The notes beneath the pieces were generated by a model, which saw nothing but the letters and a program-made list of their open reading frames with translations, had not been told where the DNA came from and ran no database searches. Both the position numbers and the translations under genes were made by a program. From Candidatus Delongbacteria bacterium (lineage in GTDB: Bacteria; UBA4055), in contig JAFGVM010000005.1 of assembly GCA_016937995.1 (NCBI GenBank), forward strand, positions 1-55,870: a DNA stretch of 55,870 nt, given 5' to 3'. How positions within the stretch are numbered: position 1 is the stretch's first letter; each line of letters begins with the position of its first letter. Shown piece by piece: positions 19,880 to 52,413 of the stretch.

Positions 19880-20065
19880 ACAGTGGACAGTGGTAGCGAG
19901 CGCAGGAATGCGTTCCTTTACCGAATATTCAATATTCAACACGGAATGATCAAGGTTCAAGGGTTTCATAGGGGACGATTCCCATTCGTTCCAAAAAAAA
20001 CTTAGGGAACAGTTTCAAAATTTACCCGGAATAAAGATCCTGAAATAAATTCAGGATGACAAAAT
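19880..20065. repeat. Cluster of four intergenic repeat elements between dCMP deaminase and dnaG
   Basis: The gap is packed with repeat units: CAGTGGACAGTGG (19880-19892); CGCAGGAATGCGTTCC (19901-19916), the exact reverse complement of 16 bases of the hairpin at 41233-41252; a GTAG-like hairpin ATAGGGGACGA ... TCGTTCC (19968-19992); and a minus-oriented GTCAT hairpin (20035-20065) with arms CCTGAA/TTCAGG around TTTAT and ends GTCAT and ATCT. No gene is seen. Confidence 0.65.
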
Positions 20066-32214: not shown

Positions 32215-33216
32215 ATGAAAGTTAGAATAATAATATTAATTACTATAATTTTTACTTCTAATACACTACTATCAAAGTATAAAAATGTTGAGAATATAGG
32301 ACCTGACAGTTTGAGGAATTATATTCCAAATAATAAATACACTTCATTACTCAACTTTAAGAGTGAGTTTAAATCAAGGTTCAAGGATTATAATAATGTA
32401 ATGCTGGTCGATCTGACACATCAGCAGATATTATATGAAGAAAATGGATATGAGATGTGTGAAATAGCATCTCTTACTAAAATGATGTCTATTTTATTGG
32501 TGCTGGAGGAGATCAAATCAGGTAAGTTGTCGTATGATGATACTTTACAAGCTTCAACTAAAGCTTCGAAAATAGGTGGATCTCAAATATTCTTAAGAGA
32601 ATATGAACGTATGAGGGTAGAGGACCTTCTTAAGGCTGTTGTGATAAAATCAGCAAATGATGCTACATTTACTTTTGCGGAAAAGATAGGTGGTGAAAAA
32701 AAGGTTGACGGCTTTGTAGAAATGATGAATATGAGAGCTAAAGAAATTGGGATGATGAATACATATTTTTATTATCCTCACGGACTGCCACCGACATGGC
32801 AGGAAAGAAAAAAAGAGAAAGTTCGCGGTAATAGATCAACTTGTTATGATTTAATTTTATTAGCGGAAGAAATGCTAAAATATCCTAAACTTATAGAATT
32901 AAGTTCTACTTGGTTGGATTATATTCGGGATGAGCCGGGTAAAAAGAAATTTATGTTGCGAAATACAAGCAGATTAATAAAAGATTATCCTTATTTTGAT
33001 GGTTTGAAAACAGGGTTCTATGATAAAGCCGGATTTAACATAGTTGCCACTGCAAAGAAAGATGGTGTAAGATTGGTTGCAGTTGTTCTTGGGACCAGAT
33101 CTATGAAAGGTAGAGATAAATTTGTAAATAAACTTGTTACCTGGGGTTTTGATCAGGTAATTGATGAAGAGGCAGAGGAAGCAGCATTCCAAGAAGATAT
33201 AAAACCAGATCATTAA
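32215..33216 (+). CDS. D-alanyl-D-alanine carboxypeptidase (S11, PBP5-like)
   Basis: A 333-residue exported penicillin-binding protein that trims the last D-alanine from peptidoglycan stem peptides. All three active-site motifs are present: S86-LTK89 (IASLTKMM), SAN (146-148, IKSANDA) and KTG near residue 265 (GLKTGFYDKAGF). A signal peptide covers about residues 1-20. The protein ends soon after the catalytic domain; the second PBP5 domain and membrane-anchor helix are missing, so it is probably soluble in the periplasm. The GTCAT hairpin after it may end the transcript. Confidence 0.9.
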   Translation: MKVRIIILITIIFTSNTLLSKYKNVENIGPDSLRNYIPNNKYTSLLNFKSEFKSRFKDYNNVMLVDLTHQQILYEENGYEMCEIASLTKMMSILLVLEEIKSGKLSYDDTLQASTKASKIGGSQIFLREYERMRVEDLLKAVVIKSANDATFTFAEKIGGEKKVDGFVEMMNMRAKEIGMMNTYFYYPHGLPPTWQERKKEKVRGNRSTCYDLILLAEEMLKYPKLIELSSTWLDYIRDEPGKKKFMLRNTSRLIKDYPYFDGLKTGFYDKAGFNIVATAKKDGVRLVAVVLGTRSMKGRDKFVNKLVTWGFDQVIDEEAEEAAFQEDIKPDH

Positions 33217-33220
33217 ACTT

Positions 33221-33260
33221 ATTTTGTCATTCTCGTGCTTGACACGGGAATCTGTTTTTT
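33221..33260 (+). repeat. GTCAT hairpin repeat, left of the GIY-YIG gene; possible terminator
   Basis: ATTTTGTCAT, arm TCTCGTG, loop CTTGA, arm CACGGGA, then ATCT. The arms pair with one wobble. A T-run (TGTTTTTTAT) follows, so it can also stop transcription after the carboxypeptidase gene. An inverted copy lies at 33567-33599. Confidence 0.75.
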
Positions 33261-33262
33261 AT

Positions 33263-33558
33263 ATGAATAATCAGTATTTTATATATATATTTTGTCTAAT
33301 AAGAAATATGGTGTTTTATATGTTGGAGTTACTTCTGATTTGGTAAAAAGAGTATATCAGCATAAATCAAAATTGATCGAGGGATTTACATCAAGATATA
33401 GTATTGATAAGCTCGTATATTATGAGTATTGTAATGATGTAAAATCAGCTATACAAAGGGAAAAGAATATAAAAAAGTATTTAAGACAGTGGAAAATAGA
33501 TTTGATAGAAAAAGCTAATCCAGAATGGAATGATTTATATTCAGAAATTGTTACTTGA
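33263..33558 (+). pseudogene. GIY-YIG nuclease family gene, frameshifted at an AT tract
   Basis: The frame from the TTG at 33292 encodes most of a small single-domain GIY-YIG nuclease (COG2827 type): KYGVLYVGVTSDLVKRVYQH, then EYCNDVKSAIQREKNIKKYL with the conserved catalytic-domain Glu. The expected N-terminus is present but in another frame: the ATG at 33263 reads MNNQYFIYI, then runs off frame at the dinucleotide tract 33281-33290. Removing one AT unit joins the two as NQYFIYILSNKKYGVLYVG, a normal family N-terminus. The catalytic Tyr of the first motif is therefore lost in the current state. The gene may be dead or switched off by slippage. It is bracketed by inverted GTCAT hairpins. Confidence 0.75.
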
Positions 33559-33566
33559 AGAGCTTT

Positions 33567-33599
33567 AGATCTCCGGATCAAGTCCGAAGATGACAAAAT
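33567..33599 (-). repeat. GTCAT hairpin repeat, right of the GIY-YIG gene
   Basis: On the minus strand: ATTTTGTCAT, arm CTTCGGA, loop CTTGA, arm TCCGGAG, then ATCT. Ends and loop are identical to the copy at 33221-33254, while both arms differ and still pair. Confidence 0.75.
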
Positions 33600-33605
33600 G
33601 ATTAT

Positions 33606-34511
33606 TTAAGTTTTACTTCCCTGATACAAACCATGATGATCCATATATTCTTTAAAAATATTTTTAAACTGTTCGGTAGAAATACCCCATTTTGGAGCGA
33701 TCAGCTCATTCGAATGAGCTCTGGAAAGTAATCTTTGGATCACTATATCTTTTTTTAAATAACTTAGTGAATTACAAAACAATTCTAAATATTTTTCAAG
33801 TGTTAATGGGTTATATGAACCACTTGAATATAAATTTGTAAGTTCTGTATTATTTAAAACTTGCAAATGATGAAATTTTAGATAATCCGGTTTTACCTCA
33901 TTGATCTTTTTCATTGAAGAATAGATCATTGAATCAGTCTCATTTGGAAGACCAATGATCATATGAATACCAATTTTAAAATCTGTATTTTCTCTGATCA
34001 AATTGTAAGCATTCATAAATTCCTGGAATGTATGACCTCTCTTAATATCAGATAAAGTTGAATCATGGATAGATTGGAGACCAAGTTCCAGCCACACCGG
34101 CTTATTATTTGAAGCTTTTTTTAGCATTTCCAAAATTCCAATACTGACATTATCAGGTCTTGTGGATATAGCTAAGACCTTAATGTTTTCAGGATTCATC
34201 GCCTCTGAAAAAGATTTAAATAAATATTCTATATTGCCAAATGTTGAAGTATTATCCTGGAAGTATGCAATAAATTTATCGGTTTGATATTTTTTTTTCA
34301 AATATGGTAATGCGTCGTCGATCTGTTCTTTCACTGTGAATAATTTCTTAGATGTATGAGGAAGGAAAGATGTCTGATTGCAATAAATACATGGTGGGTC
34401 ATTTGGACAAGGAGTATGAAGTGTAAGGCCGATCTTTCCGTATTTCTCTCCAAATGTCTTTTTTAGGTATGAAATAAAGTCTGTGTAATAATATCTTTCA
34501 TTTTTTTTCAT
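33606..34511 (-). CDS. Radical SAM protein (YhcC/TIGR01212-like)
   Basis: A 301-residue radical SAM enzyme similar to the YhcC family, whose reaction is not known. The [4Fe-4S] cysteines are C35, C41 and C44 (CPNDPPCIYC), a shortened version of the longer Cys spacing in YhcC. Other family hallmarks follow: FIAYFQDNTSTFGN, ISTRPDNVS, WLELGLQSIHDSTLSDIKRG and KIGIHMIIGLPNET. The C-terminal 70 residues contain VIQRLLSRAHSNELIAPKWG. The gene runs against its neighbours; the gap to the next gene (34512-34689) must hold divergent promoters. Confidence 0.83.
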   Translation of the reverse strand: MKKNERYYYTDFISYLKKTFGEKYGKIGLTLHTPCPNDPPCIYCNQTSFLPHTSKKLFTVKEQIDDALPYLKKKYQTDKFIAYFQDNTSTFGNIEYLFKSFSEAMNPENIKVLAISTRPDNVSIGILEMLKKASNNKPVWLELGLQSIHDSTLSDIKRGHTFQEFMNAYNLIRENTDFKIGIHMIIGLPNETDSMIYSSMKKINEVKPDYLKFHHLQVLNNTELTNLYSSGSYNPLTLEKYLELFCNSLSYLKKDIVIQRLLSRAHSNELIAPKWGISTEQFKNIFKEYMDHHGLYQGSKT

Positions 34512-35886: not shown

Positions 35887-35963
35887 GTAGGGGGAAGGCT
35901 CCTACGTCTTCCCGCATCGTAGAAAACAAGATTGCAGCGGATCAAAGGTCCTCGCAATGACAA
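35887..35963. repeat. GTAGGGG and GTCAT hairpin repeats joined upstream of nadC
   Basis: GTAGGGGGAAG ... CTTCCCGC (35887-35915) pairs GGGAAG with CTTCCC. A minus-oriented GTCAT element (35929-35963) follows: GTCAT, TGCGAGGA ... TCCGCTGCA, ATCT. Its last bases touch the nadC ribosome binding site AAAGGA (35962-35967). Confidence 0.65.
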
Positions 35964-45674: not shown

Positions 45675-45706
45675 AGATTTCCAAGGATTGAAATCCTCGC
45701 AATGAC
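45675..45706 (-). repeat. GTCAT hairpin repeat upstream of the RsmI paralogue
   Basis: On the minus strand GTCATTGCG, arm AGGATT, loop TC, arm AATCCT, then TGGAAATCT. It ends 15 bases before the start codon at 45722, next to AAAAGG. Confidence 0.65.
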
Positions 45707-51290: not shown

Positions 51291-51366
51291 GTCATCCTGA
51301 ATTTATTTTATGGTCTAAAAGATTAAAAGATAGATACTGAGCCGATAAACCGGGATCAGCATGACA
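51291..51366. repeat. GTCAT-type repeat between aroA and aroC
   Basis: GTCATCCTGAATTTAT at 51291 matches the 20035-20065 element in ends, left arm and loop, but the right arm is decayed (TTTATGG for TTCAGG). GGGATCAGCATGAC (51353-51366) closes the stretch with an inverted ATGAC, close to the aroC ribosome binding site AAAGGA. Confidence 0.5.
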
Positions 51367-52388: not shown

Positions 52389-52413
52389 GTCATTGCGAGG
52401 TACGACGCAATCT
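52389..52413 (+). repeat. GTCAT hairpin repeat downstream of aroC
   Basis: GTCAT, arm TGCG, AGGTACGA, arm CGCA, then ATCT. The shortest complete member of the GTCAT ... ATCT family in the window. Confidence 0.65.

Follow-up and report, generated by a model that had tools for sequence, protein, structure and literature searches.

The CGTC-tagged REPs described by Di Nocera et al. in 2013 (PMC3733652) carry a YGTC tag, a stem of 8–9 bp that starts with AT, a loop of 4–5 nt and a short tail, and they occur mainly as inverted dimers, mostly in intergenic DNA and past stop codons. The superfamily includes dRS3 of Neisseria and RPE-4 and RPE-6 of Rickettsia. A dedicated transposase was not found for these REPs in that account, nor a transposase flanked by them; many CGTC species encode tyrosine transposases, and GIY-YIG nucleases go unmentioned (PMC3733652). 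GTCAT-type palindromes, which also form arrays in numerous Alphaproteobacteria and Bacteroidota, belong to the most widespread short repeats of bacteria, and their mode of spread has been explicitly in question since 2013. In the REPtron, a single RAYT nuclease gene is bracketed by inverted GTAG-tagged REPs, and gene-less pairs (REPINs) found elsewhere are presumed to be served in trans. Within the GIY-YIG superfamily, Slx1 cuts branched DNA, and homing endonucleases such as I-TevI spread selfishly; the Seg type comprises free-standing GIY-YIG homing endonucleases. Prokaryotic proteins of the general type studied here have been grouped with Slx1, with a predicted role in break repair (Dunin-Horkawicz et al. 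2006, PMC1564403). The same work describes an HsdR gene of Methylococcus into which a GIY-YIG domain was 'very recently inserted', as would fit a mobile unit.

Here we analysed a stretch of 55,870 nucleotides from a Candidatus Delongbacteria bacterium, hereafter the window. It contains a putative mobile unit of 371 bp (33225–33595, no strand assigned), in which two inverted REPs enclose a GIY-YIG nuclease gene. The 5' neighbour (32215–33216, + strand) is presumably a D-alanyl-D-alanine carboxypeptidase-like gene and the 3' neighbour (33606–34511, opposite strand, –) is what we take to be a radical-SAM gene, both named from sequence. The left REP (33225–33253, + strand), located by sequence and by a hairpin finder, reads T-GTC-ATTCTCGTG-CTTGA-CACGGGAAT-CT; it forms a 9-bp stem ATTCTCGTG/CACGGGAAT with loop CTTGA and tail CT, and its TGTC tag faces outward. 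The right REP (33567–33595, – strand) is inverted and reads AG-ATCTCCGGA-TCAAG-TCCGAAGAT-GAC-A, with stem ATCTTCGGA/TCCGGAGAT, loop CTTGA and the tag again facing outward. The initial annotation had placed both repeats correctly and assigned them 7-base arms, whereas folding as RNA yields stems of 9 bp, each including one G·T pair, at –10 to –11 kcal/mol. It had also counted the outer ATTTT as part of the shared repeat. Beyond (T)GTC, however, no relation is seen between the bases of this copy and those of the others in the genome, so the element starts at the tag; ATTTT, missing from those copies, is a local likeness and was rejected as part of the terminal repeat. Five tagged hairpins occur in the window, two of which bracket the GIY-YIG gene; simulation with a first-order Markov model of its sequence yields 0.5 per 56 kb. 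The repeats and the gene between them are real and well beyond chance expectation. More GTCAT...ATC repeats, of at least three subfamilies and without a nuclease, lie in the window at 20037–20060, 52389–52411, 35929–35961, 45675–45706 and 51332–51365.

By these sequence features, the two repeats classify as members of the CGTC/TGTC-tagged REP superfamily, as its TGTC variant. Family members carry an unpaired CGTC, or TGTC/CCTC, at one end, and TGTC stands at both outer ends of the unit. The 9-bp AT.../...AT stem with its CTTGA loop agrees with stems of 8–9 bp that have complementary AT in the first two positions and loops of 4–5 nt. The copy number and inverted dimers typical of CGTC REPs were found in the source genome as well: 12 places fit the window REP with at most two mismatches, a broad REP pattern gave 127 matches versus 42 for the reversed control and resolved into several sister subfamilies, and inverted dimers without a gene occur at three loci (L002, L009 and L010). 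While the 2013 description knows neither a dedicated transposase nor a GIY-YIG protein for such REPs, here a GIY-YIG gene lies between them.

The region between the REPs encodes a single-domain GIY-YIG nuclease (33271–33558, + strand; 95 open codons plus stop; PF01541, 49.5 bits), for which NCBIfam gave no named family; Rfam gave no match. The initial annotation of a nuclease gene at this place is right about the domain, but the domain frame has no in-frame ATG. Six-frame reading pointed to 33263–33270 (+ strand) as the probable original start region: the ATG at 33263 is off by one base, and a TAA at 33268–33270 stands in the domain frame ahead of the GIY-YIG domain. In relatives such as L020, an in-frame ATG follows directly past the left REP. 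The displaced ATG and the in-frame TAA imply that the window copy is frameshifted, uses another start or contains an assembly error; it is probably a decaying member of the element. UvrC aside, a single further PF01541 gene occurs in the genome (C56:21413-21691; 59% identity to that of the window). This second gene (locus G000:C56:21312-21839; L014/L040) is flanked by longer GTCATTGCGAGG...GCAATC repeats, another GTCAT subfamily. It starts with ATG GAA TAA and so meets an in-frame stop early; the corresponding gene of a congener (G002) lacks the 5' half. Since the 5' ends of both the window copy and the second copy are broken, the lineage seems to carry decaying copies of the unit.

Sequence and structure comparisons place the enzyme among the Slx1/UPF0213-like GIY-YIG nucleases. 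Besides the Pfam match, the alignment has near-invariant catalytic residues Y6, Y17, R27, H31 and E64, which include the expected Tyr, Tyr, Arg and Glu set. The AlphaFold model (pLDDT 91.9) finds its nearest Foldseek neighbour in the UPF0213 structure 1zg2, followed by Slx1–Slx4, including complexes with branched and 5'-flap DNA. The window enzyme thus shares fold and subfamily with the Slx1/UPF0213/COG2827 nucleases, but it has no RING domain and no Slx4, and here it is tied to REPs. In Bradyrhizobium, median dN/dS values of 0.03 and 0.10 among orthologues, at dS near saturation, indicate strong purifying selection on the nuclease. The unit resembles a REPtron in that one nuclease gene is bracketed by inverted REPs, with gene-less pairs elsewhere and presumed service in trans. 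It is nevertheless not a REPtron, because the only domain encoded between the repeats is that of an unrelated GIY-YIG enzyme of about 95 residues rather than an HUH tyrosine transposase, and the tag is TGTC, of the YGTC type, rather than GTAG.

To compare the arrangement across bacteria, 80 loci were picked from the GTDB genome collection by nuclease similarity alone and not by repeats; they cover Pseudomonadota, Bacteroidota, Planctomycetota, Elusimicrobia, Patescibacteria, Atribacteria, Nitrospirae, Calditrichaeota, Spirochaetes and others, and 75 had enough flank for counting. GTCAT hairpins were found no farther than 250 bp from 61/75 nucleases, compared with 50/717 control ORFs of the same loci; for 57 of the 75 nucleases, at least one flank has a hairpin whose tag points outward. 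Bracketing with tags outward was found for 26/75 nucleases versus 0/717 control ORFs; among random 290-bp intervals, 8 of 27,483 were bracketed. These counts, together with the second copy in the source genome, answer the comparison asked for in the initial annotation: the repeats accompany GIY-YIG genes of this subfamily far more frequently than they do other genes. The best nuclease loci of an evenly drawn Pseudomonadota sample were flanked in 26 and bracketed in 15 of 29 cases. The corresponding Bacteroidota counts, 14/29 and 7/29, are underestimates because the hairpin finder overlooks longer GTCAT repeats (GTCATTCTGAACGAAGTGAAGAATC, GTCATTGCGAG...GCAATC); inspection by eye found GTCAT or ATGAC motifs near all of the other 15 Bacteroidota loci, motifs so short that they also arise by chance. 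Among more distant GIY-YIG genes, 1 of 14 was flanked, although the strict finder accepted only 7 of 16 close ones in this first set of relatives. The simple GTCAT hairpin was not seen near some family members, namely those of Sinorhizobium (L228), Novosphingobium (L315) and Planktothrix (L318).

The bracketed units are uniform in size and matched at their ends. Across 62 of them, a few loci being counted twice via different searches, the tag-to-tag span has a median of 375 bp (IQR 360–405). In 40 of the 62, the left and right stems share the same 7 bases, against an expectation of 11.5 from shuffling the right ends across loci. Furthermore, nuclease distance correlates with REP stem distance over 88 unique nucleases (Mantel r=0.34, p=0.0005), a modest correlation that is uncorrected for species relatedness.

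The presence of the nuclease also predicts the REP load of a genome. In a survey of 349 Pseudomonadota genomes for REPs of the GTCATNCCNG type, at least 10 REPs were found in 46/80 genomes with a close nuclease (E<=1e-25) versus 29/255 without one (OR 10.5, p=5e-16). Among 248 Bacteroidota genomes, the figures were 40/131 with a close nuclease (E<=1e-12) and 0/117 without (p=4e-13). The repeats are therefore not equally common in genomes that lack the nuclease; equal abundance would have spoken against the initial annotation. However, 17 of the 255 Pseudomonadota genomes without a strong nuclease match have at least 20 REPs, which means that REPs can occur without the nuclease. In a looser search of these 17, eight gave only weaker or UvrC-like matches and nine gave none, most being without a close GIY gene at E<=0.01. 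Such nuclease-free REPs may be relics, reflect incomplete assemblies or depend on another mobiliser. More than 100 CGTC REPs and no close GIY-YIG gene were recorded in the Pseudomonadota genomes G188, G225, G241, G250 and G372; the REPs listed for G188 are highly uniform, which hints at another mobiliser or a missing contig.

The roughly 15 REP-rich genomes without a close nuclease would suit an arrangement in which a trans-acting transposase, for instance an HUH enzyme of the IS200/RAYT type, moves CGTC REPs and the nuclease gene merely hitch-hikes while serving a cellular role of its own, all the more as many CGTC species encode tyrosine transposases (PMC3733652). We consider this unlikely: Di Nocera et al. 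saw no transposase flanked by CGTC REPs (PMC3733652), whereas the GIY gene mostly is flanked, nuclease presence goes with REP load in two phyla, and nuclease divergence follows REP type.

Comparison of filled and empty sites revealed that the unit is present or absent as a whole. In the congener (G002, L127), the two genes that flank the unit in the window are adjacent, about 60 bp apart, with neither repeat nor nuclease between them. Azospirillum lipoferum 4B carries a nuclease between two REP pairs in the gap between sufB and sufC, while the same gap holds no REP in A. ramasamyi, A. oryzae, strain B510 and A. thermophilum (Azospirillum flank identity 95–98%). A different nuclease, cleanly bracketed, occupies this gap in Shinella PSBB067; different REP–nuclease units have inserted independently at sufB–sufC in Shinella and Azospirillum (L256 and L229), both right behind a TAG stop. 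At a first site in Bradyrhizobium, the whole unit is present in 2 of 120 genomes and missing from at least 15, whose empty alleles contain no REP; one additional genome (L200) matches the left flank and the unit near a contig end. At a second site close to the first (L233–L252), between a stop codon and a terminator, the unit occurs in opposite orientations with two nuclease lineages, 70% and 85–88% identical to the nuclease of L054. Two further forms occur at this second site: one is a derivative with an internal deletion (L234), the other a single palindrome, near-perfect, GTCATTCCGGGG...CCCCGGAATGAC (L252:2789-2840), which looks like the outer halves of a left and a right REP joined and is possibly an excision scar.

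A recent duplication defines the ends. Genome G082, the source of L087, contains two 410-bp copies that are 99.8% identical, lie 4.4 kb apart (L269) and have unrelated flanks. Their identity runs from TGTCAT to ATGACAGAGA; it is bounded by the outer tags and includes both REPs. With defined ends and a recent copy at a new site, the pair behaves like a transposable element. No target-site duplication was evident in L269 or at the Bradyrhizobium and Azospirillum junctions, most of which are blurred by species-level divergence, and the junction at one Bradyrhizobium site has about 55 extra bases. The unit moves as a whole, bounded by its outer REP tags. The mobile cassette of GIY-YIG gene and inverted repeats that had been proposed from the window thus holds in outline, by flanking association, whole-unit presence or absence and duplication.

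These sites also bear on the idea that REPs spread by other means and that a free-standing GIY-YIG homing gene, a parasite, cuts REP pairs and inserts between them. Homing endonucleases of the superfamily exist (PMC1564403), REP dimers without a gene are common, and two nuclease lineages sit at the same Bradyrhizobium place in opposite orientation. A homing gene would leave an uninterrupted site in the empty allele; if the REP pair is that site, the empty alleles at the window locus, in Azospirillum and at the first Bradyrhizobium site should keep REPs, but they have none. The recent duplicate brought both REPs along, and left and right REPs resemble each other. The unit shares with I-TevI-like enzymes the nuclease superfamily and selfish spread, but its enzyme has no adjoining DNA-binding domain and both repeats travel with the gene. 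Because the empty sites are without repeats, simple homing into REP pairs is disfavoured and the unit does not qualify as a plain homing endonuclease gene; we regard a homing parasite as improbable. That REPs simply gather downstream of small intergenic genes, with the bracket due to chance or a transcription-terminator arrangement, would agree with their location past stop codons (PMC3733652), but this is scarcely credible and already contradicted by the control ORFs, the random intervals, the rarely flanked distant GIY-YIG genes, and the whole-unit presence or absence and duplication.

We therefore read the window feature as probably a copy of a minimal mobile element of about 375 bp, in which CGTC/TGTC REPs with tags outward surround a GIY-YIG gene of about 95 residues and which would be mobilised via this nuclease. 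The repeat–nuclease–repeat unit is found again in many phyla, where it duplicates and is variably present, and this makes its nuclease the strongest candidate so far for the enzyme that spreads CGTC REPs. We infer that it cuts the repeats and mobilises the unit. In the putative model, the nuclease would recognise the hairpin or cruciform with its tag, perhaps while the DNA is replicated, in the way that Slx1-type nucleases act on branched DNA. As a structure-selective nuclease, it might nick or cut at or near this hairpin, which would let the unit be copied or moved to intergenic sites, often right past stop codons. On this model, REP pairs without a gene would be non-autonomous derivatives that depend on the nuclease in trans, much as REPINs depend on RAYTs.

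We lean, with less assurance, towards the broader view that such units are bacterial mobile elements of a hitherto undescribed class, whose sole enzyme, a stand-alone GIY-YIG nuclease of about 95 residues, acts on GTC-tagged hairpins and is the missing mobiliser of CGTC/GTCAT REPs in many phyla. No earlier link between a GIY-YIG nuclease and CGTC REPs was found in the openly licensed literature, which is no proof of priority. The unit could be filed as a REP with its cognate nuclease; on a stricter view, the element class itself could be new. If the proposal is true, a large family annotated just as 'GIY-YIG nuclease family protein' would gain a role, and the enzymes known to move bacterial repeats would include one more type. 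A named candidate enzyme and clear unit boundaries make the question testable with one protein of about 11 kDa and an oligonucleotide.

Nuclease genes were also seen in wider contexts. A GIY-YIG domain in a 1483-residue frame (L258, G252:C133) was considered as an in-gene insertion and rejected, no GTCAT repeats being found there; the frame may be merely a long open one in GC-rich DNA. In Neisseria gonorrhoeae NZ_CP119142.1 (L314), a close GIY-YIG relative lies inside a dRS3-type REP array; this record is labelled a plasmid yet measures 2.17 Mb and is probably a mislabelled chromosome. At L300 (G620:C1:204500-214500), nuclease units lie inside arrays of alternating REPs, with two near-identical nuclease copies 6 kb apart.
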